A DNA stretch of 64,000 nt from Imbricaverruca yamaguchii (Eukaryota; Arthropoda; Thecostraca; Neoverrucidae), in the NCBI GenBank assembly GCA_034440575.1, contig JAOTOL010001559.1, positions 186,001 to 250,000 on the forward strand, in the 5' to 3' direction. Positions 2,542 to 62,860 of the stretch are shown in pieces. Position 1 is the stretch's first letter. The number at the start of each line of letters is the position of its first letter. The notes below the pieces were generated by a model. It searched no databases. It was given only the letters and a program-made list of their open reading frames with translations, and had not been told where the DNA came from. The position numbers and the translations under genes were made by a program.

Positions 2542-2710
2542 ACCAGTACGGCTTCCTGTCGTACGAACATGAGGAAGGCAAGAAGCTGTTCTTCCACAAC
2601 AGTGAGGTGAAGGATGGTGTGACTCTGCGCGAGGGCGATGAGGTGGAGTTCGGCGTACTGACCTCCCACCGCACTGGCAAATCGTCCGCTTGCCAGGTGG
2701 TCCGCATCAG
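2542..2710 (+). CDS. CSDE1: CSDE1/Unr, penultimate exon: last cold-shock domain
   Basis: This exon encodes the last canonical cold-shock domain. Joining the A left by the previous exon to the first two bases gives Asn, then QYGFLSYE (RNP1-like), KKLFFHNSEV (RNP2-like), and a GDEVEFGVLTSHRTGKSSAC stretch. These match the vertebrate protein in order and spacing, as known from the family. Aromatic residues of the two RNP motifs contact single-stranded RNA in cold-shock domains. The acceptor is CACCGCAG. The donor ATCAG|GTGAGG ends the exon in phase 2. Reading through meets TGA at once, so the first donor must be used. The last 11 bases of the exon plus the donor form the unit of the downstream 35-bp array. 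Confidence 0.88.
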
Positions 2711-3214
2711 GTGAGGGTGTACTGTCGTATTATGGTCCGCATCAGGTGAGGGTGTACTGTCGTCCTATGGTCCGCATCAGGTGAGGGTGTACTGTCGTCC
2801 TATGGTCCGCATCAGGTGAGGGTGTACTGTCGTCCTATGGTCCGCATCAGGTGAGGGTGTACTGTCGTCCTATGGTCCGCATCAGGTGAGGGTGTACTGT
2901 CGTATTATGGTCCGCATCAGGTGAGGTGGGTGTACTTGTCCGCATCGGTGAGGGTTGTCTTTATGGTCCGCATCAGGTGGGGTGTCTTGCATCAGGTGAG
3001 GGTGTACTGTGTTTATGTCGTCATATGGTCCGCATCAGGTGAGGGTGTACTGTCGTCCTATGGTCCGCATCAGGTGAGGGTGTACTGTCGTCCTATGGTC
3101 CGTATCAGGTGATAGTGTACTGTCGTCCTATGGTCCGCATCAGGTGAGGGTGTACTGTCGTCCTATGGTCCGCATCAGGTGATAGTGTACTGTCGTCCTA
3201 TGGTCCGCATCAGG
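2701..3214 (+). repeat. 35-bp minisatellite made of the CSDE1 exon 2 donor junction
   Basis: The exon/intron junction TCCGCATCAG|GTGAGG recurs at 2701, 2736, 2771 and so on, with a spacing of 35 bp. There are about a dozen copies, including shortened or altered ones around 2935-3000. Units contain TACTGTCGTCCTATGG between junctions. Each intact copy keeps the donor hexamer, so the intron begins with many near-identical candidate 5' splice sites. Copies near 3110 and 3180 change GTGAGG to GTGATA. Confidence 0.95.
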
Positions 3215-4082
3215 TCATCACCATCATAAGCATAACGTTTATTTCAATCATATGTGCGCTATATGACCTACGCGGTCGTTGCAGCCATGAACTATAATAA
3301 CTAACGGATTCAATCATATTGCGGTTCTGTTGGACGTTTTATTTGAATGGTGCAAAAGGCGTTTAAATCATGGCGCCTATTTGAAGGTGTGGGTTGACAC
3401 GGGAATAAAAGATAAGCATAAGTGCACTCTTCTCCGTGGGATATTTTCTGTTATATCCCTAACCGCCGACGCCGCAGGTCAGCTGTGAAGCCACGGCCCT
3501 TTCCAGCGTGGGTCGCGACCCCAGTTCGGTGTAACTTTAGGCCATTTTTAACTGGTTATCAATGCTAGTTTGTGTCAAATATATGGGCTTCGAATAAAAG
3601 TTAAGAAAATGGCAGGCCACCACCCAACCGTCGTTTTCGCTCGATCCGTCCCCATGGAGCAGGATACGAAGCTTGGTTAGTGTTGGAATTCTGGAAGATT
3701 TTGTGAAATGTTGTTGAATAGTTTACTTCAGGAAAAGGTGTATATAACTAGAGCAAAAACCAGGTAATAAGAATTAATTGGGCTCCTTAAGTTTGCAAGA
3801 GTAAGTATCGCTAGTTCTCTACGAAAAAAACATCCATTCAGGAGGGATAGGGATGATTTTCTCCACGACATAATATTCCCAGTTGCAAAACCCAGGAGAC
3901 GACAGTTCTGGCATCCTTGTTCAGCGAAGTTCTGTTGTAGCCTTTATGAAATATTCTGTATTTCAGTATGAGTGTCTGTGTGTGGTGGCGATATGGGTTC
4001 GCAATGTGCACTTATGGCGAGTCCGAATATATTTTTACGTGCATCAGCATGCCCTGTGACTTTGCATTTCGTCGTATTACAG

Positions 4083-4279
4083 CAGCGCTTCGGACGAGAA
4101 GAAGAAAGAACAACACGTCGTTCACAGCTCAGACGGAGCGGCCTGACCGGGTGATCCAGCGCATCCGCACCATGGCGCTGAACGACCAGCGGCGTCCTCG
4201 TGCCGTGCAGATCGTGCGCCAGCCGCGCGGCCCCGAGGAGGGTAGCCGCGGCTTTGGCGCTCGTCGTCCGGCCGCCTGA
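4083..4279 (+). CDS. CSDE1: CSDE1/Unr, terminal exon (C-terminal tail); phase problem
   Basis: The frame ending at the TGA at 4277-4279 encodes RPDRVIQRIRTMALND and then VRQPRGPEEGSRGFGARR. This is the conserved C-terminal CSDE1 tail, in which RPDR, the LRQPRGP-like motif and GFGA are family landmarks. The best acceptors (TATTACAG, then CAG) start the exon at 4083 or 4086. Joined in phase 2 from exon 2, either gives a different frame (SASDEKKKEQHVVHSSDGAA) that stops at 4144-4146, just before RPDR. The correct frame needs a weak acceptor ending at 4098, an unseen small exon, or a one-base deletion near 4140. The last looks attractive, because the blocked frame would read straight into RPDR. 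Confidence 0.8.
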
Positions 4280-5740
4280 TGCGGCTGCAGCCAGCCGAAG
4301 CCTCTCACAGTCCCCGCCGCCAGCGTCTGACGGCCGCCGCCCGAGCCAACCACTCTCACAGCGTGCCTAGATTCTGGTCTCAAACACAAACAGTGCTTTC
4401 CTGACTGTGATGTTTGAGCGGGACATTTGTAAGCTTGAAAGGGAGAGAAAGAGCGAGAGGGCGCACGCGCTAACGAGAGAGAAAGGAGCGCAATATTGAG
4501 ACGGGAGAGCTGGAGCTGCGGAATCGTCTGACGCGGTCGACCTGTGCGGTGCCGGACGGTCCCCCGGCCCCTCCACCTGTCCTGTCCTGTCGTGCCGTGC
4601 CGTGCCGTGCCGTGCCGTGCCGTGCCATGCCATGCCATGCCATGTCATGTACCGGCCCCCATTTCAAGCCGCCGGCCGTCTTCTTAAGTCGGCGCGGCCG
4701 GTCGCTCGGCCACTCTCGGCTCGGGTAGTCGTTCCTCCGATCCAGGTTCACCGGCCTCTGGGCGGCACACACCGCCGCACACACGCATGGAACCAGTCGC
4801 GTCCAGACACCGCCGCTGTTTGCAGAGTTTACGGGGCACACCTTGCGCATTGTCTCGGTCTGCGCGTCACTGGTGACTGCCCGGACTGCGCTTGTTGAGG
4901 ACAGGCCTCGGTCAGATCAGTGTTGGTCGTCACCGTGCTGGGGCCTCGGCGTCCGGTCTGATGTGACGTCAAGGGCCGGACGTGACGTGCCGCTGACCGG
5001 CAATTGTCTTCTGCTGACGGCTCGGGCCTCACTGAGAAGGTGGCACGTGGTCGGCTTGATATGTCCACGGATCTGACCTCGTGTGGCCGGACGGGTAGTC
5101 GGCCATGTCAGTGGTGTCTGGGCGCGGCGTGTGCCAGGGTTTATTCGTTTATAGTTTGTCTTCCATGTGGGCTGTCGCGGAGAAGACAGCACCGGTCGTG
5201 ACAACGCCGCCGCTTTGATACGAAATCGTCTGGTACAAGATTCTGTGATATTTTGCCGGTATGGGCTGATATCGGCACAACTCTCGACACCCGCCATCGA
5301 GCGGCGCCGCGCCCACCGGCTACTTAATCATCCACCTCACGTAGGAATATCGCAGTTGTCTCGTTTCACGGTGAGCTTACTTTGCCAATCGGATGTATCT
5401 GGTTTTGTTGGCTTGGTAGCGGCGCCAACAATGTCGGGAGAAGTGGGGTGCATGTCGTCCGGGAGTAACCCCCGATGACGCGACAGCTGGTGTGTTTTGT
5501 TTTGTTTATCGCGCTGGTCAGCTCTGCGGTGCAGTGATTTCCTCTGGCTACAGTCCTGGCAGAGAGGTTGGCGGGTGCCGCTGCCTTGCCCTCCTCCACA
5601 TACACCGGTACCACACCTCCGTGCGAGCGGCCGGCGCGGTGGGGCCCTTCTCCAGCCCGCCACGACCCGGCGGCTGCAACCACATACGACTGTGATTACG
5701 TTGTTTCTAATGTAGTAATATAAATAAAGTAATTCCAAAG
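4280..5740 (+). other. CSDE1 3' untranslated region (inferred) with (GTGCC)n tract
   Basis: GC-rich DNA without a recognisable gene follows the CSDE1 stop. A 5-bp microsatellite, GTGCC grading into ATGCC, lies at 4590-4650. A canonical AATAAA at 5723-5728 is the first strong polyadenylation signal; a second lies at 6385-6390. The extent of the transcript is inferred. Open frames here are interrupted shadows of GC-rich sequence. Confidence 0.45.
5723..5728 (+). terminator. Candidate polyadenylation signal AATAAA
   Basis: This is the first canonical AATAAA after the CSDE1 stop codon, in an AT-rich pocket within GC-rich DNA. A second one at 6385-6390 is an alternative. Confidence 0.4.
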
Positions 5741-11180: not shown

Positions 11181-11186
11181 TGGATG

Positions 11187-11280
11187 TCTTACAGGTGGTA
11201 CACAAATCTGAAGATGTCTTACAGGTGGTACACCAATCTGAAGATGTCTTACAGGTGGTACACAAATCTGAAGATATCTT
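11187..11280. repeat. 30-bp tandem repeat, about three copies
   Basis: ACAGGTGGTA recurs at 11191, 11221 and 11251. The unit reads ACAGGTGGTACACAAATCTG followed by AAGATGTCTT. Each unit contains TCTTACAG followed by GTGGTA, a combination resembling both an acceptor and a donor, but no exon is recognised nearby. Confidence 0.85.
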
Positions 11281-12646: not shown

Positions 12647-13180
12647 CTAACACACGCCCTGGAGGGGGGGGGGCGAAATCCGCACACCCCTCCGAATTTT
12701 CGTGCATGACTCCATATTGTACCGGCCGATATACGCCTTTTTGCGTACCTGCTTAAAAACGATCGGCGCATTGTTTTTAAAGCCAGAAAAATGAAAATCG
12801 GTGGAAACTTTTTCAAGTTACGGGCCTGGTAGTGTCAGACCTGTTGGTTTATAACAGCGTCAGGTCCTCTACTCTGTGGTATTATCAGGTCCACTAATCT
12901 GTGGTAGTGTCATGCCTGCTGGTCTGTGGTAGTTTCAGGTCTTCTAATCCGTGGTATTATCAGGTCTGCTAATCTGTGATAGTAAGAACTTTTTCAAGTT
13001 AGTAAAAACATTTCGCTGCGTCCGACCACAAACATCGGCGCTCATGCGCTTCCCATATATTGCCAAAAGGGAAATGTTCTTCACAACACTGGCGACTTGT
13101 TTCATGCATATTGTTATGTTATATAATTTAAAAGTCATGTTAGGTCGCCGAGGTCAAGTCAGGTCAAGTTCTTGACAGGC
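12647..13180. repeat. Interspersed repeat 'B', second tandem copy, interrupted
   Basis: The same unit as 12285-12646 repeats here, with ACCGGCCGATATACGCC and CGCTTCCCATATATTGCC, and ends with the same AGGTCA cluster. It is split by a 166-bp insert at 12821-12986 that is flanked by a 15-bp direct repeat. Confidence 0.7.
12821..12986. mobile_element. Minisatellite block inserted with 15-bp target duplication
   Basis: AACTTTTTCAAGTTA occurs at 12806-12820 and again at 12987-13001. The other B copy has the site only once. The insert is a 25-bp tandem array (GGTAGTGTCA plus a GGTCTGCTAATCTGT-like half). The same array family occurs at 16395-16615. No transposase or poly(A) is seen. Confidence 0.7.
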
Positions 13181-13939: not shown

Positions 13940-15175
13940 TTTAGACATAAAGACATAAAGACATAAAAAATTAGTGCAACTATGACCCACAAGGGCCCTT
14001 CTTGGTTGCACTGTGTACACTCAACCAGTTGCCCATCAAATCCGTCGATCAGCCCTCCCTGTAATACTGAAAAGCAAGCCCTCTATTCTTATAATGATTG
14101 TCTATGATGTTTTTAAAGACGTTCAATGTGCTGCTACTTACAACGAGGTCTAGCAGTTGGTTCCATTGTTCTACTACCCTGTTGGTGAAGAAAGACTGTC
14201 TTAACCCTGCTCTGCTGTGGTTAACTTTAATTTGGAATTGATGACCTCTAATTGCATCATTTCTGTCAAATGCAAACATTTCCCCAAGATATCCCCTATC
14301 CACACCATGGACAAATTTAAAGACCTGGATGAGATCTCCTCTCAGCCTTCTCTATCTAAGTGAAAACATATTCAATTTCCTCAATCCTTCCTCATATGCC
14401 AGGCTGCTTATACCATTAACCATTTTGGCAGCCTTCTTTTGTACTCTCTCTAAAAGCCAACCATCTTTTTCATAGCTAGGAGGCCAAACTTGGATGCAGT
14501 ATTCCAAATGTGGCGTGACATATGCACAGTAAAGCTTCCTGATGACTTCCTCACATCTGTATGATACATCAATATTTATTGCCCCAAGCATTCTCAGTGC
14601 CTTCTTCCTGGCTTCCTTGGTGTGTTCTGATGCCCCCAATTTTGTGTTTAGAATATCACCTAAATCCTTCTCCTGTTGAGTCACTGATAACACTTCGCCA
14701 CCCATCAAGTATGGAGCCTTCATGTGCTGCTTACCCACATGCATGATTTTGCACTTATCGAAATTAAATTTCATTTGCCATTCTCCGGACCACTTCACAA
14801 GTTCGTCTAAGTCTTTTTGCAGCGAGATATTCTCATTCTGACCTGTTATTGCCCTAAAGACTTTCAAATCATCCGCAAATTTCAAAACCTTACTGCTTAG
14901 GCCACTTTCAATGTTATTTGCAAAAATAATGAACAGTAGTGACCCCAGTACTGACCCCTGGGGACTCCACTAAGAACATTTTGCCATGATTACTTTGTGC
15001 CATTTAGCACCACTCTTTGTTGTCTATCTGAAAGCCGTAACTCTATCCATTTTAAGATGCGACCTGTAGTACCATGGGCCTGAAGTTGCATCATTAACCG
15101 TGTGTGGGGTACTTTGTCAAAGGCCTTACTAAAGTCAAGATATGCTACATCAACCTGATTTCCCTGATCAAAACT
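13940..15175 (-). mobile_element. CR1/L2-like LINE, 3' RT fragment
   Basis: The minus strand encodes the palm, thumb and C-terminal part of a non-LTR reverse transcriptase. Landmarks are FADD at the catalytic palm (about 14880), WSGEWQMKFNFDKCKIMHVG, EKDLGDILNTKLGAS, HLEYCIQVWPPSYEKD and VQKKAAKMVNGISSLAYEEG. After a frame break the usual C-terminal FTNRVVEQWNQL follows. An upstream part with a YLDF...FDKVPH-like segment is readable near 15100-15170. The 3' tail on this strand is a short (ATGTCTTT)n run at about 13943-13970; 8-bp tail repeats are typical of CR1-type LINEs. It is truncated 5' and has stops, so it is dead. Confidence 0.85.
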
Positions 15176-16394: not shown

Positions 16395-16615
16395 AGTTTA
16401 CTACAGTGTCATATCTGCTGATCCATTTGTGGTGTCAATTTCGCTGGTGTCTAGTAGTGTCAGATCTATTGGTTTCCAGTAGTGTCATGTCTGCTGGTTC
16501 ATGATAGTGCCAGGTCTGCTGATCTCTGGTAGTGTCAGGTCTGCTGGTCCCTGGTAGTGTGAGGTCTGTTTATCTGTGGCAGTGTCAGGTCTGCTGGTGC
16601 AGTGTGAGGTGTGTT
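16395..16615. repeat. 25-bp minisatellite upstream of gene 2
   Basis: Diverged units of GGTAGTGTCAGGTCTGCTGG plus TCCCT recur about every 25 bp. The array ends some 70 bp before the acceptor of the exon at 16687. It is the same family as the transposed block at 12821-12986. Confidence 0.8.
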
Positions 16616-16686: not shown

Positions 16687-17005
16687 GTGACACTGGTCGT
16701 GCTAGGTGTCACCGTGCACTACAGTGACCAGTCGGTCGAGGCCGTCCACAAGGCCGTGTCGCAGCCGGACGACACACAGTGGTCGGCTCTGGAGGCTCTG
16801 GAACGGGCTCCTCTGCAGTCGGCGGCTCAGGAGCCGGCTCAGCCGGCCGCACAGCAGCCGGCCCAGCAGAAGGCCAAGGTGCCAGGCCGCTGGGAGACGG
16901 CCGAAGACGGCGGCAGGTTCTTCATACCGTTCGTCTACTCGAGCACACTGACCGTCTTCAGCATCACCTCCATCACCAGCACCGTTCCCTTCACCTGCAT
17001 CAGCA
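16687..17005 (+). CDS. Gene 2 exon A: Ser/Thr/Val-rich protein, module 1
   Basis: The exon follows a good acceptor (CTCGCTGCAG) in phase 0 and ends in phase 1 at A|GTATGT. It opens with a hydrophobic run, VTLVVLGVTVHYS, that could complete a signal peptide begun in an unseen first exon. Next comes an Ala/Gln/Pro-rich stretch (about residues 35-65). The exon closes with RFFIPFVYSSTLTVFS and a Ser/Thr/Val-rich segment ending in TCIS. I do not recognise a named family. Proteins with short TVTST-like runs followed by Cys and basic residues are common among uncharacterised arthropod secreted proteins, but that is a general resemblance only. Confidence 0.7.
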
Positions 17006-24692: not shown

Positions 24693-25776
24693 GTAAGTCA
24701 AATGACAGCATGCCAGTGCAGCTGAATGGAATATGATAAATGTTTTACAGGAAGCAAATGACAGTAATTGTTGAGTTTTCCCCTCAGGCTTTTCTGATGC
24801 CAACTACTTTGCCAGCTGACTGCTAGCTAGCCAACCAATGTGAGAAAAGTGGTTCACTAACCAGGAGTCAGTGAATAAAAAAGGTATTCCTGACCATATA
24901 GCCGGAGAATAAGAAATGGCCTTGGATCCCCCCACCAAAAAAAAATGGCCCCTTCAAAAATGCTGGGGAACAGAATGCTACTGGTGTTGCAGCCCAAAAA
25001 GTTCATGGATAAAAAAACAAGCTGGAGAATACAAATCGGAGTTGTGGAACAACCAGTATGGTACCTATTAAGGCTTCATCACTTTTTAAAAAGTATGCTA
25101 ATTTCTGCAAAAAAGGGACAAAATGACTCAAATATCAGCATGGATTTTTTTAATAGCTATTAAATTCAGTGAATTATGGGCAAATGATGATATTCACAGA
25201 TGAACAGCAAACACATCCTGCTGGCACAAAACTAACTCTGGGTATCATAGTATCAACATTCAGCTTGCTTATGGATGTAAAGTAAATCATTTGTTTCAAA
25301 GTGTGTGATCAGTCTGCATAGTGCACACTGCACCATGCAAATGTCAGTGTAAATACATCCATAATACATCAAATAATAATTGAATAATAAAAGCTATAAG
25401 TAAGAATCAGATTACATTCAGCATTTCTCAGCTGTGTGGCACAATGCACACAAGATGTTTCAGCTAAAATAGGTACCTCTTTTCCAGGTTATTCACATGA
25501 CAGAGGCAGTATTTACTCTTGTCATCTCCTCTAAAAAAGCATTGCTTCAGCCAGAGTATGATCTATCATCTATGCCTGGAGGCAAAATGTCAGTGCTTTT
25601 AATGGGGTGAAATCTTCAACATTTCAGCAGCAGCATTCAGCATTTGTTCAGCAAGCATTTATAATTGAGCCAGCTGAAATATTTTGAACACTGCTCCACA
25701 ATGGTACGGTGGTGCATGCTTCTTTCTCAAAATATCTTATCTTAATCTTATCTTAAAATCATTAGTATTTTTGTCT

Positions 25777-28176
25777 ATGTATTTATGTGTATGTCTTTAT
25801 GTCTATGTCTTTATGTCTATGTCTTTATGTCTATGTCTTTATGTCTATGTCTTTATGTCTATGTCTTTATGTCTATGTCTTTATGTCTATGTCTTTATGT
25901 CTATGTCTTTATGTCTATGTCTTTATGTCTATGTCTTTATGTCTATGTCTTTATGTCTATGTCTTTATGTCTATGTCTTTATGTCTATGTCTTTATGTCT
26001 ATGTCTTTATGTCTATGTCTTTATGTCTATGTCTTTATGTCTATGTCTTTATGTCTATGTCTTTATGTCTATGTCTTTATGTCTATGTCTTTATGTCTAT
26101 GTCTTTATGTCTATGTCTTTATGTCTATGTCTTTATGTCTATGTCTTTATGTCTATGTCTTTATGTCTATGTCTTTATGTCTATGTCTTTATGTCTATGT
26201 CTTTATGTCTATGTCTTTATGTCTATGTCTTTATGTCTATGTCTTTATGTCTATGTCTTTATGTCTATGTCTTTATGTCTATGTCTTTATGTCTATGTCT
26301 TTATGTCTATGTCTTTATGTCTATGTCTTTATGTCTATGTCTTTATGTCTATGTCTTTATGTCTATGTCTTTATGTCTATGTCTTTATGTCTATGTCTTT
26401 ATGTCTATGTCTTTATGTCTATGTCTTTATGTCTATGTCTTTATGTCTATGTCTTTATGTCTATGTCTTTATGTCTATGTCTTTATGTCTATGTCTTTAT
26501 GTCTATGTCTTTATGTCTATGTCTTTATGTCTATGTCTTTATGTCTATGTCTTTATGTCTATGTCTTTATGTCTATGTCTTTATGTCTATGTCTTTATGT
26601 CTATGTCTTTATGTCTATGTCTTTATGTCTATGTTTTATGTCTATGTTTTATGTCTATGTCTTTATGTCTATGTTTTTGTTATGTTTATGTCTATGTTTT
26701 TGTTATGTCTTTTGTTATGTTTTATGTTTGTTTTTGTTTGTCTTTTGTTATGTTTTTGTTTGTTTTTGTTTGTTTTTGTTTTTTTTGTTTGTTTTTGTTT
26801 GTTTTTGTTGTTTTGTTGTTTTTGTTGTTTTTGTTTTTTTTGTTTGTTTTTGTTGTTTTGTTATGTTTTTGTTTGTTTTTGTTGTTTGTTTGTTTTTGTT
26901 TGTTTTTGTTTGTTTTTGTTTGTTTTGTTTGTTTTTGTTTGTTTTTGTTTGTTTTTGTTTGTTTTTGTTTGTTTTTGTTTTTTTTGTTTGTTTTTGTTTG
27001 TTTTATGTTTGTTTTTGTTTGTTTTGTTTGTTGTTTGTTTTTGTTTGTTTTTGTTTGTTTTTGTTTGTTGTTTGTTTTTGTGTTTTGTTTGTTTTTGTTT
27101 GTTTTTGTTTGTTTTTGTTTGTTTTATGTTTGTTTTTGTTTGTTTTTGTTTGTTTTTGTTTGTTTTTGTTATGTTTTATGTTTGTTTTTGTTGTTTTTGT
27201 TATGTTTTTGTTTGTTTATGTTATGTCTTTATGTTATGTTTTATGTTATGTCTTTATGTTATGTCTTTTGTTATGTTTTTGTTATGTCTTTATGTTATGT
27301 CTTTATGTCTATGTTTTTGTTATGTTTTATGTCTATGTCTTTATGTCTATGTCTTTATGTTATGTCTTTATGTTATGTCTTTATGTTATGTCTTTATGTT
27401 ATGTCTTTATGTCTATGTCTTTATGTCTATGTCTTTATGTCTATGTCTTTATGTCTATGTCTTTTGTCTATGTCTTTATGTCTATGTCTTTATGTCTATG
27501 TCTTTATGTCTATGTCTTTATGTCTATGTCTTTATGTCTATGTCTTTATGTCTATGTCTTTATGTCTATGTCTTTATGTCTATGTCTTTATGTCTATGTC
27601 TTTATGTCTATGTCTTTATGTCTATGTCTTTATGTCTATGTCTTTATGTCTATGTCTTTATGTCTATGTCTTTATGTCTATGTCTTTATGTCTATGTCTT
27701 TATGTCTATGTCTTTATGTCTATGTCTTTATGTCTATGTCTTTATGTCTATGTCTTTATGTCTATGTCTTTATGTCTATGTCTTTATGTCTATGTCTTTA
27801 TGTCTATGTCTTTATGTCTATGTCTTTATGTCTATGTCTTTATGTCTATGTCTTTATGTCTATGTCTTTATGTCTATGTCTTTATGTCTATGTCTTTATG
27901 TCTATGTCTTTATGTCTATGTCTTTATGTCTATGTCTTTATGTCTATGTCTTTATGTCTATGTCTTTATGTCTATGTCTTTATGTCTATGTCTTTATGTC
28001 TATGTCTTTATGTCTATGTCTTTATGTCTATGTCTTTATGTCTATGTCTTTATGTCTATGTCTTTATGTCTATGTCTTTATGTCTATGTCTTTATGTCTA
28101 TGTCTTTATGTCTATGTCTTTATGTCTATGTCTTTATGTCTATGTCTTTATGTCTATGTCTTTATGTCTATGTCTT
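25777..28176. repeat. 2.4-kb minisatellite, 14-bp unit with T/G-rich core
   Basis: CTATGTCTTTATGT repeats almost perfectly from 25777 to about 26630 and from about 27410 to 28176. Between them lies a decayed core of TTTTTGTTTG and TTATGT-type units. The unit has no stop codon on the + strand and 14 is not a multiple of 3, so all three + frames stay open for over 800 codons and read the same 14-residue pattern. These frames are not genes. The array ends exactly where a 5'-truncated LINE begins. Confidence 0.97.
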
Positions 28177-28880
28177 TTGGGAGCATCAGAACAGACCAAG
28201 GAAGCCAAGAAGAAGGAACTGAGAATGCTTGGGGAAATAAATAGGAATGTATCATACAGAAATGAGGAAGTCATCAGGAAGCTTTACTGTGCAAATGTCA
28301 GGCTACATTTGAAATACTGAACCCAAGCGTGGTCTCCTAGCTATGAAAAGGATTGTTGGCTTTTAGAGAGAGTACAAAAGAGGGCTACAAAAATGGTTAA
28401 TGACATAAGCAACCTGGTATATGAGGAAAGATTGAAGAAATTGAATATGTTTTCATTTAGATATAGAAGGCCAAGAGGAGGTCTCATAGAGGTCTTTAAA
28501 TTTGTCCGTGATCTGGAGAAGGCATATCTTGCGGAAATGTTTTAATTGAGCAGAAATGATGCAATTAGAAGTCATCAATTCAAAATAAAAATTAATCCCA
28601 GCAGCACGAGGTTAAGACAGTCCTTCTGCACCAACAGGGTGGTAGAACACTGGAACCAGCTGCCAGAAACCATTGATAGCATGCAGCACATTGAACATCT
28701 GTAAAAACAGCATAGACAATCATTATAAGAAGAGAAGGCTTGCTTTTCAGTAGTCCAGGGAGGGCTCATCAACTGATTTGGTGGCAAACTGGTTGAGTGC
28801 ACAGAGTGCAACCAAGAAGAGCCCCTGTGGCTCATATTTGCAGGAATCTTTTATGTCTTTATGTCTTTGTAACCAATAGC
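28177..28880 (+). mobile_element. CR1/L2-like LINE, 5'-truncated 3' end
   Basis: The + strand encodes GASEQTKEAKKKELRMLGEI, SYRNEEVIRKLYCANVRLHL, a stop, then WSPSYEKDCWLLERVQKRAT, VYEERLKKLNMFSFRYRRPR and FCTNRVVEHWNQLPETID. This is the same family as 14.0-15.2 kb and 63.2-64 kb. It ends in TTTATGTCTTTATGTCTTTG at about 28850-28870. Several in-frame stops are present. The 3' tail motif is nearly the same as the unit of the adjacent satellite. Confidence 0.85.
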
Positions 28881-50323: not shown

Positions 50324-52950
50324 GTATTCACGTAACTCACCTAATTCCTCAGACACCACCTCGTTACCTAAAAATGCCATATATATTTGGTGACTATGTA
50401 AGCATTGATCTCTGCGCACCTTGAAACCTGACTTGAGTTTTCGTTGCCTTCCAGTATACACAACTTCCCGAACAAATGATGCAGTTTGGACCTCCCTATG
50501 CTCATGGCTTAGAATGCTAGTTTATCTTCATTTTGCTCGAAATATATGGGACTATTGGGAGCCACGGAAATTGTCTGACGAGGTTCATGGACTATAATAT
50601 AAGTATGGAATGTGTAAGTAAAGAGTAATCATTTCACAATTGACTAAGCCTTCTAACATCAAAATGAGAGCAAAACAGACAGGCTGTGTAAGCAAAAACA
50701 AGGATCTGATTCAAATTCCGGCTCTGTCATTTCTTTCTTTTAGAGGTGAAAATGAATGGCTTTTGTAATGATAGTTCCCTTATGTCATGTTGGGAGATAT
50801 GAGGACAATAAGTTTTCGGGATTTCAAGAAGAGGCGGATCAATTATTGCCTCCTTCCTACAGTAATCTGACTAACATATACGCACGAGAATGGGAATATC
50901 ACAAGTTTTGAGATGAGGTAATTGTAGTTGCTAGGAACCGCTGCACAATAATACGCAATTACGCTGACAATATGATTGCATATTGTCGCCAGTATCAACA
51001 CTGTCACGACGGGAGCTGTAAGTAGATGCCATCTAAAAGCAGTTGACATGGGCTGTCCTCAAGTGAGACGCGTCGCTGCCTGTTAGCCTGCCGGACCTGG
51101 GAGAGGAAAGTGAAAAGCATACCGATCTAGGCAACACTGGAATTATATTTTTGTCATGCAGCTACCGAGGTTGAAGACACCGGCCCTTTGAGTTCGCACT
51201 CCTCTCCATCCACCTTAGGATTTCTTTCCGAACAGTTTCAGAGGTAGTGCCGTAAGACGCAATATTAATGTGGACATCAGGAGATCTCTGATAAAGAAAG
51301 AAAACAGGTAGTTTCCTGATGTTATTCAAGAACTATTAAATATGCGCTCGCGACAAGGGCACCCTCACTAGTATGTGCGCGAAGAATATGACTACAATTG
51401 ATGATACTCAATGAAATATGATGCAAAGTGGATTTATGAAAGGTAGCTTGCCTTCAGACGTCAATTTAATTTCCAATTACAGTGACATATTGGGCATATT
51501 GTTATTTTGTGTATTGTCTTCCGGAAACATTTTCCACCATAGACCGTGGATCGATGTCGACAGTCCGTCATTCACGGATATGGTGGAGCGTGGGACCAAG
51601 CCATTAACGTTAATCGGTCCCAATGCCAAAGTTGCAGGCAGATTTTCATATTTGAAACGACAGGTGATGTGTCTGGCATGATTTCCACCACCTTGGGGCC
51701 GACAGGTTTTCTCGGTATTGTTTAAGAATATTACGCTTATGGGCGTTGAACGGAAATATTCATGCATTTCTCCTACACCATTTTGGCGAGGCAAAGCCGA
51801 TATTGATTTATTGCGGTATTGATCTATGATATAACCTTTTTTGTTGTGCCACCGCTTGGCGGCCCTACTGATACTATAGGGAGCTACTGCCAGCGCTTAG
51901 CTTGCATCGAACCATGCCAGAACCTCAATAGTACCGGAAAACTTCATATCAAAAGGTGAAAATGATAAGGTTAGATCTCTATGAAAGTAGTGGAGTATGG
52001 CATTGAAAGGCACTGCCTTCATGCCGGTATATTTGAAATCACTGAAAATTAATTCGCTAATTTGGAACGTCTGATATACAATTTAAAGGTATACAATGTG
52101 ATAATTTTGGACACAAATTCTGCAATTTAGTGCAAAAATGTGAGGATTAAACCTTCGTGGAAGTTATTCAAGATGATATCAAAATGTAGCATGTTCTATT
52201 TTCGTCTAGTTAAGAAAATCGAAAATTGTAAACACATCGTACATATGATGTATGACGCGTTTTTATAACAAGATGTTGAGTCGCCAGTTGCTCCCATTAG
52301 CTTTTAAGGCCAACTGACAGAATGACATTTGATAATATAACGAACTACAGATCATAGCAACTTGTTAAAATTTGACCACTGAACATTACATGCACCTTTC
52401 TTGGAATATCATAATTATATATATATGTATGTATGTATTCCTAATTTCTGATAATTTGTGTTTTTCAGTGTACTTCAGCCCACCTGAACGAGTTAAGAAC
52501 CCAATGCGGTGAGCTTCATCTGACTCTTGGTGAGGAAATGCAAATAATATAGATTGTGCTGTAAGAGTTGTCAGAATCAAATTCACATGTCAATAATCAT
52601 GATTAAAATAGAAACTAAAAGTAATGATAATTTAACAACAAAGTTGCTACGTAATGATGACCACTGATCAACCAATCGCTAATTCATGCATGCATGCATT
52701 AGCTAAAATTTGTATCAGGTAAGAAAGTAATTTTCACTGAAACACCGAGCTCAGATTGAGCATTGCCTGTGCATGGTGCATTGAGCATTGAGCAGTGCAT
52801 GGTGATATGCGGTCTCAGTCTACGCCATGCAGATGGTGCTATGATGGTTTGGCAGCACACCAGCTGGACGGTGTGCCAGTCAGTTTTTATTGTGACGCAC
52901 AGCTTGCAATCTTGACACACGTTAGGATAGTCGTCGGTTAGGAATACTGT
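50324..52950. other. Probable intron; no gene recognised
   Basis: This is AT-rich DNA between two likely exons of the same strand, with short frames only. Small repeats: (TATG)n at about 52417-52437 and a short CATGCATGCATGCATTAGC palindromic run near 52686. Confidence 0.45.
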
Positions 52951-53590: not shown

Positions 53591-54805
53591 ATCAATGAAC
53601 ACGTCAAAGAGACCACCGTGGTGACGTGGTGGTGCTTAGTGGCGAATGGATCGATCGTTTCAGATACTGCCGCGACCAACCAGCCACAGTGTGAGGCACG
53701 CCATGCACATACACAACATCCAAACGAGCAGATACTGGACAAAGGGATCCAGCCAGATGAGCAGATCCAGGACAAAGGGATCCAGCCAGACGAGCAGATC
53801 CAGGACAAAGGAATCCAGCCAGACAAGGAGATACTGGACAAAGGGATCCAGCCAGACGAGCAGATCCAGGACAAAGGGATCCAGCCAGAAGAGCAGGCAC
53901 GAGGTAATCGGCGCCAGCTTCAGCTCAAACAGGATCAGTCCGATGGGAGACTGGAGAAGTACAAACGCTGCTGGGAGTTGCAAGTTCGCAACATCGCCGA
54001 GTACACCGAGGGCAACTGTCGCAATCTGGAACTTGCTAGCGCTGCTGGTGTTGCTGGTGCTGATGCTGGCCAGAGGTCGCAGGATCGTAGATCCAACAGC
54101 GTGCTACAGGAAGGTAACTTTCGTCAGGTGACGAGAGGCATCGACCTTGCTCAGGAGCATAAGTGTAGCCTGACGTCCAGTTCGGATGATTATGAGCGCT
54201 CCCATGACTCTCAGGAACTGAATGAGCAGGACCCCTGTCGGGATCTGGAAGGGCGCTGCATCCACAAGGTGCCAAAAGAGCATGATCAGTGTGAGGAGCT
54301 ACATGGATCCGACATCCATAAGGAACACGATGAATGCAACTCCGATGAGAAATTTGAGTTATCTTCCATACACGATGGGTCAAAGGAATCTAACCTAAAT
54401 GAAAGATCAGAGAGATGTGACCTTAATGAGGAGTCGGATGAGACTGAGCTCGATGAGGAGTCCGGAGAGTCCGAACTTCGCCAGGAGTTGAGCTCATGCC
54501 GCCATGAGTTGGTTCAGGTCTACGGTGCCTGGCACCAGGAGCAGCAGCTGCTGGAGCAGGAGCTCAACAGCCAGCAGCAGCTACACTGTCGTCGCCTGGA
54601 TGACGTCACACGACGTCATCAGGACACGTTGGCGGCGGTGACAGCCCAGTGGCAGGGTCGGCTAGCCGAGATAAGGACACGAGCTAAACACAGCGAGGAT
54701 GCGCTGGAGCGACAGGTGATGGATCTGGACTCCATCCTACAAGAACTGCGGCGACGCTGTCGGCTATACGAGGCCGCCGCTACATCTGACCGAGCTCATA
54801 TCAAG
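53591..54805 (+). CDS. Coiled-coil gene, long exon with 11-residue repeats
   Basis: The frame is open for about 400 codons and ends in phase 0 at AAG|GTCAGC. The start is uncertain: an acceptor ending 53590 gives phase 0, matching the exon at 50323, while TCGTTTCAG at 53663 gives phase 1 and removes an odd hydrophobic stretch. From about 53725 an 11-residue unit (DEQIQDKGIQP) repeats five to six times. A charged Glu/Asp/Ser-rich region with ESNLNERSERCDLNEESDE follows. The end is a long coiled coil: RHELVQVYGAWHQEQQLLEQ, VTRRHQDTLAAVTAQWQGRL, LDSILQELRRRCRLYEAAA. No catalytic domain is visible. Confidence 0.72.
53725..53897 (+). repeat. 33-bp exonic minisatellite
   Basis: GACAAAGGGATCCAGCCAGA plus GAGCAGATCCAG repeats in register with codons, keeping the coiled-coil gene open. 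There are five to six copies with few, partly synonymous differences (CAGATCCAG versus GAGATACTG). Confidence 0.9.
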
Positions 54806-55074
54806 GTCAGCACCGGACATGTGACTGCTCCTCTGCGGTTTTTGCACCAAACGAGCTCGTATCTAGATTGGCACTGAAATTATGGCTGTTGCTCACAGGC
54901 AGGTGTTGTGGTCATCAACAAAGAGTATAAGAAGCAACCTGGGGTGCACTCAGACACGCAGTAATTTTCGCCTGGGAGGATCGTCATTTTATCCTTGTCG
55001 GTCGCTCGTCATTACCGGGATCTTCCCAGACTAAGTGTGACGGTCGTCGGTAGCGTGATTTGCTGATCTGCCGT

Positions 55075-56170
55075 CCATCACTCGTGCAACTCCCGCCTGT
55101 CACCCGTGCAACCCCCGCCTGCCACTCGTGCAACTCCCGCCTGTCACCCGTGCAACTCCCGCCTGTCACCCGTGCTGATCCCGTCTGTCACTCGTGCAAC
55201 TCCCGCCTGCCACCCGTGCAACTCCCGCCTGTCACCCGTGCAACTCCCGCCTGTCACTCGTGCAACTCCCGCCTGTCACCCGTGCAACTCCCGCCTGTCA
55301 CCCGTGCTGATCCCGTCTGTCACTCCCGCCTGTCACCTGCAACTCCCGCCTTCCGTGCAACTCCCGCCTGTCACCCGTGCAACTCCCGCCTGTCACCCGT
55401 GCAACTCCCGCCTGTCACCCGTGCAACTCCCGCCTGTCACCCGTGCAACTCCCGCCTGTCACCCGTGCAACTCCCGCCTGTCACCCGTGCAACTCCCGCC
55501 TGTCACCCTGCAACCCCGTCAACTCCCGCCTGCCACCCGTGCAACTCCCGCCTGTCACCCGTGCAACTCCGCCTGTCACCCGTGCAAATCCCCCCTCCCC
55601 AACTCCCGCCTGCCACTCGTGCAACTCCCGCCTGCCACCCGTGCAACTCCCGCCTGTCACCCGTGCAACTCCCGCCTGCCACCCGTGCAACTCCCGCCTG
55701 CCACTCGTGCAACTCCCGCCTGTCACCCGTGCAACTCCCGCCTGTCACCCGTGCAACTCCCGCCTGTCACCCGTGCAACTCCCGCCTGTCACCTGTCATC
55801 CCGTGCATTGCAACTCCCGCCTGTCACCCGTCCAACTCCCGCCTGTCACCCGTGCAACTCCCGCCTGTCACCCGTGCAACTCCCGCCTGTCACCCGTGCA
55901 ACTCCGCCTGCCACTCGTGCAACTCCCGCCTCCTCCGTCAACTCCCGCCTGTCACCCGTGCAACTCCCGCCTGCCACTCGTGCAACTCCCGCCTGTCACC
56001 CGTGCTGATCCCGTCTGTCACTCGTGCGGTTCCCGTATGTCACTCGTGTGACTCCCGTCCGTCACTCGTGCAGTTCTCGTCTGTCACTCGTGCAACTCCC
56101 GTCTGTCACTCGTGCAACTCCCGTCTGTCACTCGTGCGGTTCCCGTCTGTCACTCGTGCGGCTCAAGTCT
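55075..56170. repeat. 22-bp minisatellite in coiled-coil gene intron
   Basis: GCAACTCCCGCCTGTCACCCGT repeats about fifty times, with T/C exchanges (CACTCG, CACCCG; TGTCAC, TGCCAC) and occasional one-base slips. It decays over 56170-56500 into TTTGTCATTCGTGTAT-like units. The long frames on both strands that it opens are artefacts. Confidence 0.96.
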
Positions 56171-56762
56171 GCCACTCGTGTATGACTACCAATGCATGTT
56201 TGTCACTCATGTGTAATTACCGGCTCTCGTTTGTTACTCGTGTATATCTAATGGTCCCCGTTTTTCACTCATGCATATCTACTGGTGCCTGTTTGCTTTT
56301 CGTCTATAGCTACTTGTATCCGTGTGTCACTTGTGTGTTCCAATGATCCCCTTTTCTTACTCGTTTGTAGGTACTGGTACCCGTTTGTTTTTCGTGTATA
56401 GCTAGTGACCACCGTTTGTCTTTAGTACCCCATTTGTCATTCGTGTATAATTCGTGGTCTCCGCTTGTCTTTAGTGCGCATAGCTAATGGTCTCCGTTTG
56501 CCATTCGTGTATTACTGTATGTTATGTATACATTATATCATAACATATATACATTATAGGTTATGTATATACATTGTATATTATGTGCATACAATGCATA
56601 TACACGAATGCACGTGCATTATATGTATGTACCTTAAAATATACCTAACAGTTTAGCGGTCTAGCACTCGTGAGCAACCGGTAGTTCCGGCTGGTTCACC
56701 GTGACTGTCGCGTTTTGAATGATTGCGACAGCGACTACACAATGTAGGCAACAGCGGCTACA

Positions 56763-57868
56763 CAAGCCCTGATGTGTGGCTGCAGTCTCTGCTGTAGGAG
56801 CTGACCGGCACAGTTGCCAAGCTGGGGCGGGGGCCAGCTCCATTAGTTGCTTTTCCTTGTGGTGTTCTCTTCTTTAGGGGTGACCCGCCCAGTTCCTCTT
56901 GGGGGGGGCCAGCTCCATTCAGGCTGTGCTTGTTCCTGATGTGTGGCTGCTGTCTCTGCTGTAGGAGCTGACCGGCACAGTTGCCAAGCTGGGGCGGGAG
57001 GCCAGCTCCATTCAGGCTGTGCTTGTTCCTGATGTGTGGCTGCTGTCTCTGCTGTAGGAGCTGACCGGCACAGTTGCCAAGCTGGGGCGGGGGCCAGGTC
57101 CATTCAGGCTGTGCTCGTTCCTGATGTGTGGCTGCTGTCTCTGCTGTAGGAGCTGACCGGCACAGTTGCAGCTGGGGCGGGGCCAGCTCCATTCAGGCTG
57201 TGCTTGTTCCTGATGTGTGGCTGCTGTTCTGCTGTAGGAGCTGACCGGCACAGTTGGCTGGGGCGGGGGCCAGCTCCATTCAGGTGTGCTTGTTCTGATG
57301 TGTGGCTGCTGTCTCTGCTGTAGGAGCTGACCGGCACAGTTGCCAAGCTGGGGCGGGGGCCAGCTCCATTCAGGCTGTGCTTGTTCCTGATGTGTGGCTG
57401 CTGTCTCTGCTGTAGGAGCTGACCGGCCAGTTGCCAAGTGGGGGGGGCTCATTCAGGCTGTGCTTGTTCCTGATGTGTGGCTGCTGTCTCTGCTGTAGGA
57501 GCTGACCGGCACAGTTGCCAAGCTGGGGCGGGGGCCAGCTCCATTCAGGCTGTGCTTGTTCCTGATGTGTGGCTGCTGTCTCTGCTGTAGGAGCTGACCG
57601 GCACAGTTGCCAAGCTGGGGCGGGGGCCAGGTCCATTCAGGCTGTGCTTGTTCCTGATGTGTGGCTGCTGTCTCTGCTGTAGGAGCTGACCGGCACAGTT
57701 GCCAAGCTGGGGCGGGAGGCCAGCTCCATTCAGGGTGTGCTTGTTCCTGATGTGTGGCTGCCGTCTCTGCTGTAGGAGCTGACCGGCACAGTTGCCAAGC
57801 TGGGGCGGGAGGCCAGCTCCATTCCGGCGGTGCTTGTTCCTGATGTGTGGCTGCTGCCTCTGCTGTAG
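56763..57868 (+). repeat. 92-93-bp array of the next exon's 3' splice site and first codons
   Basis: About a dozen units begin at CTGATGTGTGGCTGCTGTCT and contain CTCTGCTGTAG followed by GAGCTGACCGGCACAGTTGC. That is the acceptor and first codons of the exon at 57869. In most copies the codons after TAG stay readable as ELTGTVAKLGREASSIQAVL, against ELTGTVAEMGREVSSLQAVL in the exon itself. Near 56880 a foreign-looking stretch interrupts, and some units have small deletions (57230-57440). Confidence 0.95.
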
Positions 57869-58086
57869 GAGCTGACCGGCACAGTTGCCGAGATGGGGCG
57901 GGAAGTCAGCTCCCTCCAGGCGGTGCTTGAACTACGGCAACAGCAAGCAGAGCAGGTGCGCAGCTTTCAGCATCAGCTACAGTTGGAGAGGACTGAGACC
58001 GGTCGGCTACAGCAGCTGGTCTCCAGACTGGAGTCCAAGGCAGCTGAGCTGACCGACACTCTCCAGCACCGTGTCGAGGCAACAGG
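57869..58086 (+). CDS. Coiled-coil gene, exon between two splice-site arrays
   Basis: The exon starts in phase 0 after CTGCTGTAG, joining directly to the previous exon's phase-0 end (...RAHIK to ELTGT...). It encodes an uninterrupted coiled coil: GREVSSLQAVLELRQQQAEQ, FQHQLQLERTETGRLQQLVS, RLESKAAELTDTLQHRVEAT, with leucines in heptad register. It ends in phase 2 at ACAGG|GTAAGT. Reading on gives TAA at once. Upstream sits an array of its 3' splice site and downstream an array of its 5' splice site. Confidence 0.82.
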
Positions 58087-58625
58087 GTAAGTGTCCTACT
58101 GACCCACTTTCTCTAGCACCATGTCGAGGCAGCAGGGTGAGTGCTAGACTCACCGACACTCTCCAGTATTGTATCGAGGCCACAGAGTGAGTGCTAGACT
58201 GACCGACACTTTCCAGTACTGTATCGAGGCCACAGAGTGAGTGCTAGACTGACCGACACTCTCCAGCACCGTGTCGAGGCAACAGGGTGAGTGTCCGTCT
58301 GACCGACACTCTCCAGCACCGTGTCGAGGCAACAGGGTAAGTGTCCTACTGACCCACATTCTCTAGCACCATGTCGAGGCAGCAGGGTGAGTGCTAGACT
58401 GACCGACACTCCCCAGCACCGTGTCGAGGCCACAGAGTGAGTGTCCGACTGACCGACACTCCCCAGCACCATGTCGAGGCAGCAGGGTAAGTGTCCGACT
58501 GACCGACACTCCCCAGCACCATGTCGAGGCAGCAGGGTGAGTGTCCGGCTGACCGACACTCCCCAGCACCATGTCGAGGCAGCAGGGTGAGTGTCCGGCT
58601 GACCGACACTCCACAGCACCGTGTG
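58046..58625 (+). repeat. 50-bp array of the exon's 5' splice site
   Basis: GACCGACACTCTCCAGCACC, then GTGTCGAGGCAACAGG|GTAAGTG, repeats about eleven times. The spacing is 50 bp in the cleanest part (58501, 58551, 58601). The first copy is the true exon end; the others lie in the intron and nearly all keep a GTGAGTG or GTAAGTG donor. Confidence 0.95.
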
Positions 58626-59690
58626 GAGGCCGTGGTGGGCTAGAATTATGTGTGTCTGACCAGCCGATACTCCATATGAAGTTCCATTATAGATGTGTTA
58701 TAATTCTTATCTACTTACCTAGCAGCTGCTTAGTGTTTGGCTAATTTGGGAGACCCGTGATGAACTACTATGGTGAACGTGATAAACTATGTGGTATGGT
58801 GCCCAAGGCTAGTAATTTCAGCTGTGTTTTCTTTACGTGCGATTTAATCCTTTTTCGCAGCCAAATAAATCAGAAAATCATTACCCACGTAAGCGGTATG
58901 TACATTACTTCGGTGACGGGACGGATACAAGGGAGAGGGAGCATTGGGGGCATGTCTCCCGTGGGATGCTGCTTTCCCTCAGGCCGAAATAAGGCACCCC
59001 TCTCGGAAAGCTTGGGGACACTCTCATCCACTCGAATTTTCCACCCAAGGGCGCCCCTCTGAGAGGAAAAGGTACCCCTTGATGGGAAAGGTACCTCTCC
59101 GGGAAGGCTCCAGTTCTCCCCCTTGAATTGTTCATCCGGAGGCGCCCCTTCGAGAGGAAAAGGTGACCTTCGTGAAGGCTCAGGTGCACTCACGTACACG
59201 TAGTATGCCTTTGGTGTCATCTATACGGCAACCATGAAGGCCGGTAGGACAGCTGCCTTATCAGCGGTGTGGCTACCCTACTAAATTTAGTTCGGTAGCT
59301 CTCAGAAAATCTCATCAGCAGAACTACAACGACCATGAATTTAGGAATGCATTGCAACGCAATCAGTACTGCAATGTTCAGTATGCAAGTTTCATTGAAA
59401 TAGGAAGCGGTGTCGCATTTCTCTACCATATACTAATTCATGTAGACACTCATAAGCTCATTTGCTCATCGTTTCCTTCCGATCAACTAGACAAAGGGGA
59501 AACCAACCATCTTCCATCATCCAAAGTGGTAGGACAGGTCCATTGGCCTCTCACTTACGCCTATGCGCATTAGCCTTAACTCCACGGAGTTACGTTGGAT
59601 ACAATAGGACCGGGAGTGTCTGGGTTGAAATCACTTGCGACCGTGGCAAGTTCGGATCGTTGCTACACGCATGAGAATGCGTCTTCTCAG
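58626..59690. other. Intron; contains a roughly 90-bp duplication
   Basis: At about 58998-59075 and 59090-59170 two related segments share CTCTCGGAAAGCTTGGG/CTCTCCGGGAAGGCTCC and GGCGCCCCTCTGAGAGGAAA/GGCGCCCCTTCGAGAGGAAA. No exon was recognised here, although a small one is needed to reconcile the phases of the flanking exons. Confidence 0.5.
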
Positions 59691-59843
59691 ACCACCGACG
59701 AATCGACAGGGCACTGTCAGAGGAAAACAGGAGACTGAAGGAAAGCCAGGAGCGTCAAAAGCAGACTCTGATGAGGCTCACCTCGGAGAAGGAGCAGCTG
59801 CAGTATAAACTGCGCTACATCTCCGACATGTGGGCCGCCGCAG
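59691..59843 (+). CDS. Coiled-coil gene, C-terminal-type exon
   Basis: The acceptor GCGTCTTCTCAG is strong and the donor is GCAG|GTACGG. The coiled-coil frame reads RRIDRALSEENRRLKESQER, then LMRLTSEKEQLQYKLRYISD and MWAAAG. It needs incoming phase 1, whereas the previous exon leaves phase 2; a later AG (59709) would restore phase but is a weak site. The ENRRL...SEKEQLQYKL pattern recalls the C-terminal coiled coils of MTUS-type microtubule-associated proteins, but this is a faint resemblance from memory. The donor junction is duplicated 59 bp downstream. Confidence 0.65.
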
Positions 59844-59908
59844 GTACGGTATGGAGCGAAATTCTGCTCCGTCGACGCAACCCGACATGTGGGCCGCCGC
59901 AGGTACGG
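59823..59908 (+). repeat. Duplicated 5' splice junction (59-bp spacing)
   Basis: CCGACATGTGGGCCGCCGCA followed by G|GTACGG occurs at 59823 and 59882. The intervening sequence is open in the exon frame, so use of the second donor would add 59 nt and change the downstream phase. Confidence 0.93.
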
Positions 59909-61640: not shown

Positions 61641-62860
61641 ATGTTGTGACCGTAAAACAGGCTCTGCTTCCCACCCCATCAGAATCTCAGTCAGACCGCA
61701 TTTTGGATGAAAAGTGTTATGCAAACATTGCCCAAGCGGGTGTGATTCCCAGGATATCTTTAGGTTCCCCCATGGAAACCACTTTTGCTACAATCAAGAA
61801 TGCCCATGAACTAACCAAACTCCTGACTCCATGTCTGTACCTAACACGGCCACCTATTACTAAACGTCATTTTGGGCGTTCTCAACCGGCTCATTGTATC
61901 GATGGATCGGTTGGTTTCCATCATCGGTCGAAAATTATGCAGATCGCACGTGCTTCCACACCAGCCAGGCTAGCATAGCAAGGTTTCTATGTATATAGAT
62001 GAATATATCTTATGTGGTATGGTATACCTGATATTCAGCTGTGCTATAAGGAATATGTCAGTTAAATTGGAAACGGGAAGGGCAAATCAGATCAAATGCA
62101 TATGAGGTCTGTTTGGGTCCGGTCATGTCAGGTCAGGCCCTGATAGGCTAGGTTAGGTTATGCATTGGGTTAGGTTTGGTTGTGTTTGGTTGGGTTAGGC
62201 TAGGTTAATGCCAATTAGTTGATTTCGTGTTATCTCGGTTAAGATCAGCTTTAGGTGAGGATGTATCCTACGCGGCATATGCGTAATATATGCATACTTT
62301 AACGAGAAGTCGCTCGTGCTGCCACGCCAGCCAAGCTACTGTGAGAAGGATTTTCTAGGGGAATGTAACTTACGCTGCAGACTGGTAACTGCAGCTGTGC
62401 TATTGGGAGTATGGACATGAAGGTAGGAAGGAGCAGATATAACACCAAATGAGGTTTGCTAAGGGTTAGGTCATGTCATGTTGGGTTAAGTTAGGCGTTT
62501 AGGTTAGGTTAGGTTACGCTACGCTGGATTATGTTAAGTTAGGTGAGTTTAGCTAATAAGTACAGGCCCTGCTTTGCACCCCATCAGAGTTTCTGTCATG
62601 TACTATTTTGGATAAAAAGTGGTATGTCGCTTTGTTCTGTTGTGATTCCCACGATATCTTTATATTTTCTCTATCGAAACTATTTTCCCTATAATCAAGA
62701 CTGCCCTGAAGCACCACCAATCGTCATTTTCGATATTCTCAGCCGGCTATTGCATCGATGGATCGATGTGTTTGTTGGAACTAACTACATCTGGTGCAAA
62801 TTTGACGGTCGCACATGCATGCACTAGCCAAGCTATCGTGGGAAAGACTATATATATCCC
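61640..62860. repeat. Degenerate large tandem duplication, two to three units
   Basis: CAGGCTCTGCTTCCCACCCCATCAGA at 61658 and CAGGCCCTGCTTTGCACCCCATCAGA at 62564 begin related stretches. They continue with TTGTGATTCCCAGGATATCTTT versus its near copy, and CGATGGATCGGT versus CGATGGATCGAT. A related end (CCAGCCAGGCTAGC, CCAGCCAAGCTACT, TAGCCAAGCTATCG) occurs at 61965, 62330 and 62825. GGTTAGGTTAGGTTA-like runs lie at 62140-62210 and 62500-62550. Confidence 0.65.

Follow-up and report, generated by a model that had tools for sequence, protein, structure and literature searches.

A predicted coding exon flanked by tandem arrays of its own acceptor and donor junctions: a two-sided 'mirage' in an animal-like genomic window

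Background

Tandem duplications that lie over exon-intron borders, at acceptors as well as donors, are described from amphioxus under the name of 'mirages', with units of 10-160 bp and unstable length (PMC3087553, PMC3902484; the name was coined by Canestro 2002, cited here via these two papers). Amphioxus BflGb6 carries an acceptor array of 150-160-bp units, 6 and 3 of them in two haplotypes, for which concerted evolution inside the array and diverged edge units are reported, and BflGb9 carries a 157-bp duplicate of a donor border (PMC3087553). The units in Adh3 measure 10-72 bp and show somatic instability (cited in PMC3087553), and PGBD5 contains two 60-bp and three 108-bp repeats over splice sites, with 7 and 6 in another assembly (PMC3902484). 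Splicing seems to proceed regardless: according to PMC3087553, the Adh3 data and globin RT-PCR suggest that it is undisturbed, and PMC3902484 states that no aberrant mRNAs accompany the Adh and TnC mirages.

Several other systems come close in one respect or another. The account of human segmental duplications in PMC2812944 places minisatellites at exon-intron boundaries; in potato RdRp, an intron is reported to have been gained by duplication across an intron-exon boundary, with the duplicate carrying the splice signals (PMC4974935); and the near intron pairs of Drosophila are presented as intron gain by tandem duplication (PMC2891723). The minisatellites of earthworm metallothionein lie in an intron, and the portion of that report at hand describes no border copies (PMC12783039). 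Among the titles and abstract openings covered, which sample the literature in part and include those on the Parhyale genome (PMC5111886) and on a prawn lectin family whose repeats measure 30 and 33 bp (PMC7536079), there were no border arrays in arthropods and no single exon with arrays on both sides.

Results and discussion

The window and its genes

The window, that is, the whole 64-kb stretch of DNA analysed here, is animal-like, with a GC content of 0.465, and includes retrotransposon fragments (a reverse-transcriptase fragment matched 32 relatives) and parts of at least two intron-containing genes; no tRNAs and no Rfam families at gathering score were found in it. Two hints point to an arthropod affinity, namely, that the best Unr match is to Drosophila and that there is a TTAGG-rich stretch at 62499-62513, TTAGG being a motif associated with arthropods; both would also be compatible with a cephalochordate. 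A motif scan of the window with at most one mismatch gave two overlapping matches to TTAGGTTAGG and 0 to TTAGGGTTAGGG, motifs that bear on the lineage of the host.

Tandem repeats of other kinds are present as well. A 25-bp unit recurs in similar form in two separate arrays, ~3.5 kb apart, at 12860-12984 and 16443-16599, the latter directly upstream of a possible exon at 16687. A 2.4-kb array of TTTATGTCTATGTC, broken up by TTTGT-rich repeats, extends over 25768-28177, and the open frame leaving it resembles, by eye, the LINE fragment at 14352-14969. A 30-bp unit that contains TTACAGGTGG is repeated about 3 times at 11183-11280, where no exon was recognised.

The gene of main interest appears to encode a coiled-coil protein (Table 1). 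Its exon 2 is predicted to be a coding exon on the strength of an open frame that continues the upstream exon (last base 54805) in phase 0 and leads into exon 3 in phase 2, and the peptide from the joined exons 1-3 is coiled-coil-like. Against Pfam, the protein gave matches only below the curated cut-offs, and among the 2951 candidates from a protein-collection search (residues 170-400 of a 400-residue query) none reached E <= 0.001; with no family above cut-off and no relative, the assignment of a gene identity by this route was dropped. Exon 1 contains a repeat of its own, the period of which, 33, is a multiple of 3 and is in frame; by contrast, the units of the border repeats described below measure 92/93, 50, ~35 and 59 bp.

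Table 1. Border repeats, associated exons and neighbouring arrays in the window
Feature	Coordinates	Strand	Description
CSDE1/Unr cold-shock-domain exon	2542..2710	+	homology to Unr/CSDE1 up to the last full codon
~35-bp donor array	2698..3215	+	16 units counted, spacing 21-41, last partial; the first holds the CSDE1 exon donor
33-bp coding tandem repeat	53720..53896	+	5.4 copies, 11 residues each; open frame of exon 1 (upstream exon)
Exon 1 donor and possible decayed copy	54784..54888	+	last exonic base 54805; copy 61 bp downstream
22-bp GC-rich minisatellite	55078..56180	+	inside intron 1; touches no exon border
Acceptor array	56768..57929	+	13 copies of ~92 bp, 12 of them extra; last copy is the real exon start
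Exon 2	57869..58086	+	218 nt, 72 codons, coiled-coil-like; predicted from frame and phase
Donor array	58049..58631	+	12 units of 50 bp; first is the real exon end
Exon 3	59710..59843	+	predicted from agreement in phase with exon 2
Exact 27-bp duplication across the exon 3 donor (CAG/GTACGG)	59823..59908	+	copies at 59823 and 59882; 32-bp filler between

Two arrays of the splice junctions of exon 2

A sequence-only reading of this DNA had claimed that exon 2 is flanked by two arrays of its own splice junctions, one on each side. Tandem Repeats Finder and a direct split of the sequence bear this out, with the combined span corrected from 56763..58625 to 56768-58631. On the acceptor side, Tandem Repeats Finder gives a 92-bp array at 56904-57929 and a row of period 441 that begins at 56768, and the direct split recovers 13 exon starts, from 56798 to 57869, at a spacing of 80-93. 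The acceptor unit is made up of a branch-point-like YTRAY motif, a tract in which 10-13 of 17 bases are pyrimidines, TAG and the ~20 codons with which the exon begins; AG is present in all 13 copies, and YTRAY, at -25 or -26, in every copy except that at 56878. On the donor side, where Tandem Repeats Finder places the 50-bp array at 58049-58630, the unit consists of the last 38 exonic bases and GTRAGT, and both this hexamer and GT itself occur in 11 of the 12 units. The claim that AG and GT are kept in almost every copy is thus accurate as a count. That most upstream copies also keep the coding frame is correct up to codon 11, with ELTGTVAKLGR kept in 8 of the 12 extra copies, but not for the repeated segment as a whole, over which just three extra copies, those starting at 56965, 57683 and 57776, are in frame. 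The 92-bp copies are one base short within GGGCGGGAGGCC, and in the copy at 56878 the second codon is a stop.

Copies within the arrays are homogenised. The pattern reported for BflGb6, with diverged edge units, is matched by the acceptor array and in part by the donor array. Acceptor copies 3, 9 and 11 show zero substitutions between them, and copies 3-6 and 9-11 differ mutually by 0-2 substitutions, as against 7-17 from the real-exon copy and 38 for the edge copy u2; the counts for u7 and u8 are inflated because these copies are shifted in the alignment. The real exon start departs from the acceptor-array consensus at 7 of 61 exonic positions and at 2 of 41 intronic positions. In the donor array, units 1-2 recur as units 6-7, the real-edge unit 1 being identical to unit 6 and unit 2 differing from unit 7 by 1 base; units 10 and 11 are identical, and the far-edge unit is diverged (14-20 substitutions). 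The recurrence of units in both arrays fits block growth combined with homogenisation.

Several acceptor copies contain indels at or close to runs of G, possibly errors of assembly, and the exon is itself a prediction, so that the arrays might be assembly artefacts or the exon might not be real. We consider this very unlikely: substitutions are scattered over the donor units, up to 14 of them among the first 11; the phases of exon 2 fit both neighbours; and a separate array sits on a donor in another gene, that of CSDE1, where the exon is fixed by homology.

The exon 2 feature is of a known kind, a two-sided 'mirage'. As in the amphioxus cases, the unit spans the exon-intron boundary (at both borders of exon 2 and at the CSDE1 and exon 3 donors, these borders being predicted from phase and, for CSDE1, from homology), the splice signals are kept in many copies that are homogenised within the array, and the units range from tens of bp to ~160 bp. 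What differs from amphioxus is that arrays of 12-13 copies here occupy each border of a single exon, that two genes within 64 kb carry four border repeats, and that the host may not be a cephalochordate, as all those in the two papers are. In the human segmental duplications, the repeats are, by the cited account, exonic or yield novel introns in recent paralogs, whereas those described here are on the intron side and leave no open alternative. Likewise, the potato and Drosophila duplications, as reported, made a new intron, whereas the copies in this window are numerous and show no sign of a new intron.

Only the innermost pair of splice sites stays open

The coding consequences of the extra sites were assessed by combining the 13 acceptors with the 12 donor-unit positions, which makes 156 pairs (143 with a GT donor), and reading each into exon 3. 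A single pair, the innermost, is stop-free; the other 155 hit a stop, which, for any upstream acceptor, lies inside the array and, for any downstream donor, coincides with the true donor, read in frame as TAA, in all cases. The innermost pair also delimits the shortest exon, 218 nt, compared to 268-718 nt when any of the other 10 GT donors is used and 311-1289 nt when any of the other 12 acceptors is. Because only this pair stays open, the extra splice sites are not usable spares; splicing would tolerate them or, at most, they would give rise to aborted transcripts, and a role as redundant or protein-diversifying splice sites is rejected. Frame reading of the 156 pairs also revealed no new usable intron derived from a duplicated border, as no alternative pair keeps the frame.

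The splice cores were further tested for conservation by comparing the variability of their columns with that of the same columns slid round the unit. For the donor core (-3 to +6), sliding gave a variability as low or lower at 11 of 50 positions without the last unit and at 31 of 50 with it; for the acceptor core, the corresponding numbers were 29 of 95 without the two edge copies and 22 of 95 with them, and for the CSDE1 donor core, 15 of 43. The dinucleotides alone gave 17 of 95 for AG and 17 of 50 for GT (last unit left out). By this slid-column test, no special conservation of the splice cores was found in the donor, acceptor or CSDE1 arrays. The persistence of AG and GT in nearly all copies is explained by the overall likeness of the copies and so provides no evidence of selection; together with the premature stops that follow from all but one of the pairs, this leaves the proposal that the arrays reflect selection for redundant splice sites unsupported.

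Selection could conceivably act in a different way, by keeping the arrays as regulators of splicing: extra U1 sites and extra U2AF or branch-point sites would recruit the spliceosome, or leaky use of the copies would produce transcripts with premature stops and so tune gene output by nonsense-mediated decay. The retention of AG, the YTRAY-like motif and GT is what such a function would predict, and the fact that every misuse leads to a stop recalls the design of poison exons; furthermore, an intronic minisatellite of C. elegans is described as over-represented near exons with multiple splicing decisions (PMC4039745). Nevertheless, the splice cores are no more conserved than the rest of the unit and the amphioxus cases are said, in the accounts cited above, to splice normally, which makes a regulatory role improbable.

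How the arrays could have arisen and why splicing would tolerate them

We favour, as the probable explanation, two 'mirage'-type minisatellites that are tolerated by splicing. In its favour are the edge geometry of the arrays, their turnover in blocks, the single open pair, the ordinary variability of the splice cores, the in-frame period of the exon 1 repeat as opposed to the border units, and the amphioxus counterparts. A short segment across each exon border would have been duplicated in tandem and the duplicate then multiplied by unequal exchange or slippage, with the real border persisting as an edge copy; all the extra copies lie on the intron side, presumably because copies within the exon would alter the protein. 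Splicing, in turn, could tolerate the arrays because exon definition would favour the innermost acceptor-donor pair, the one that yields the shortest exon, with misuse of any other copy expected to lead to a premature stop, and the arrays would presumably have no function.

With regard to the trigger of duplication, seven stretches were folded and none proved unusually stable (z from -0.69 to 2.41), on which ground hairpin-driven slippage was set aside. A further candidate, GAGCTGACCGRCAC, occurs at both ends of exon 2 but is weak as a common seed motif, given that 32 of 1000 codon shuffles give an equal self-match. Two observations do not sit easily with the tolerated-minisatellite reading: the YTRAY motif in 12 of the 13 acceptor copies is also predicted by the regulatory reading, and the location of four of the 12 non-simple local repeats of the window on exon borders is hard to obtain by chance placement.

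Other border repeats in the same window

The pattern recurs in the window beyond exon 2: at the donor of the CSDE1 exon, at that of exon 3 and possibly at that of exon 1. The first of these is anchored by homology: joined to the preceding exon, the CSDE1 exon aligns with Drosophila Unr at residues 5-112 of 113 (E 8.7e-35) and with human CSDE1 at 49-112 (E 3.3e-19), with the human structure covering less of the query, and the last exon alone scores 66.6 bits with Drosophila Unr vs 62.1 bits with the human protein. Read-through past the CSDE1 donor encounters TGA at once. By eye, the phase of the CSDE1 last-exon acceptor does not match that of the preceding donor, and therefore, a further small exon may be missing from the model of this gene. 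Within 4076-4281, there is a CSDE1-like C-terminal frame (ERPDRVIQRIR...GFGARRPAA, then a stop), which we take to resemble human CSDE1.

At the exon 3 donor, the two exact copies are 59 bp apart, and the filler between them has no other full copies in the window; this arrangement would fit repair with templated insertion. Of the border duplications, this pair looks the youngest. The candidate at the exon 1 donor matches in 27 of 40 bases, with AG/GT changed to AG/AT. A score as high is reached by 0.36% of 53972 windows outside repeat clusters; at a threshold of >=25 of 40, there are 54 groups, two of which are the exon 1 donor pair and nearly all of which lie away from known borders. Because most such groups lie off known borders, the copy is only suggestive, a possible decayed border duplication. 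Six other borders, when centred, give 18-21 of 40, which is the background level.

Border placement compared with chance

How surprising this concentration of repeats on borders is can be gauged from a self-comparison of the window (ungapped, offsets 15-300, low-complexity hits dropped first, score >=20), which yielded 18 local repeat clusters, 6 of them simple or low-complexity; of the remaining 12, four cross an exon border. Tandem Repeats Finder also lists short two-copy rows, some of which (52755-52804 is one) fall below a score of 20 and were left out of the count. In a birth null, the founding units (13, including a 14-bp array at 25768) were placed randomly relative to 10, 14 or 40 borders, numbers of our own choosing. 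Under this null, 0.07-0.29 border hits are expected vs 4 observed (P 1.1e-6 to 2.4e-4); when the two index arrays are set aside, the 2 remaining hits compare with 0.05-0.20 expected (P 0.0013 to 0.018), and once the two-copy case is removed too, a single hit remains (P 0.041 to 0.15). In a coverage null, which accepts the full extent of the arrays as it stands, the excess is much weaker: 4 of 11 borders are covered, and a value as high is reached in 426 of 20000 placements made independently and in 800 of 9143 circular shifts; without the index arrays, the figures are 2 of 9 borders, 3175 of 20000 placements and 1816 of 9143 shifts. The 11 borders come from a predicted list centred on the array-bearing genes, and the count therefore leans towards excess. 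Border enrichment over chance thus depends on the null, with P from ~1e-6 to 0.09. In our view, the birth null is the fairer one for origin because arrays grow after birth. The original contention that this is not a chance minisatellite holds to the extent that the placement is unexpected under random birth, and is tempered by the weak excess under the coverage null.

These numbers bear on the idea that splice junctions are hotspots of duplication, through transcription-linked R-loops, the GC step at the border or end joining with templated filler, so that border arrays would arise far more often than intronic ones, an idea compatible with the tolerated-minisatellite explanation that we prefer. 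The excess under the birth null, which persists without the index arrays, the filler at the exon 3 donor, of the sort left by end-joining repair, and the possible decayed partner at the exon 1 donor are all in its favour. Conversely, the excess is weak under the coverage null and shrinks to a single hit once the index arrays and the two-copy case are removed, the units show no unusual folding, and many weak local repeats lie off known borders. Composition might also mimic the pattern: the GC content of the border segments is 51-74% vs 46.5% for the window, and GC-rich exon seeds that survive, being tolerated, only astride a border would provide a simple explanation in place of a dedicated hotspot, although the 22-bp array inside intron 1, with a GC content of 0.64, is GC-rich too. 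On balance, we view the hotspot mechanism as possible but somewhat doubtful.

Conclusions

With arrays on each border of a single exon, and with two genes sharing four border repeats within 64 kb, the window extends the mirage pattern known from amphioxus. A broader proposition, that outside cephalochordates, too, splice junctions are recurrent birthplaces of tandem arrays, at both exon ends and in unrelated genes, is put forward tentatively and seems to us rather less likely than its negation. If true, it would imply a general mutational coupling of exon borders to duplication, a source of decoy splice sites as well as of raw material for new introns. Two wider questions are how splicing singles out the right site when a dozen nearly identical ones are present and how introns originate. 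Border repeats of several apparent ages, from the exact 27-bp pair through the ~35-, 50- and 92-bp arrays to the possible decayed pair, make up a natural test series for these questions. Should the excess hold genome-wide, in a host that is not a cephalochordate, the 'mirage' phenomenon would be broader than it appears in the cited papers.
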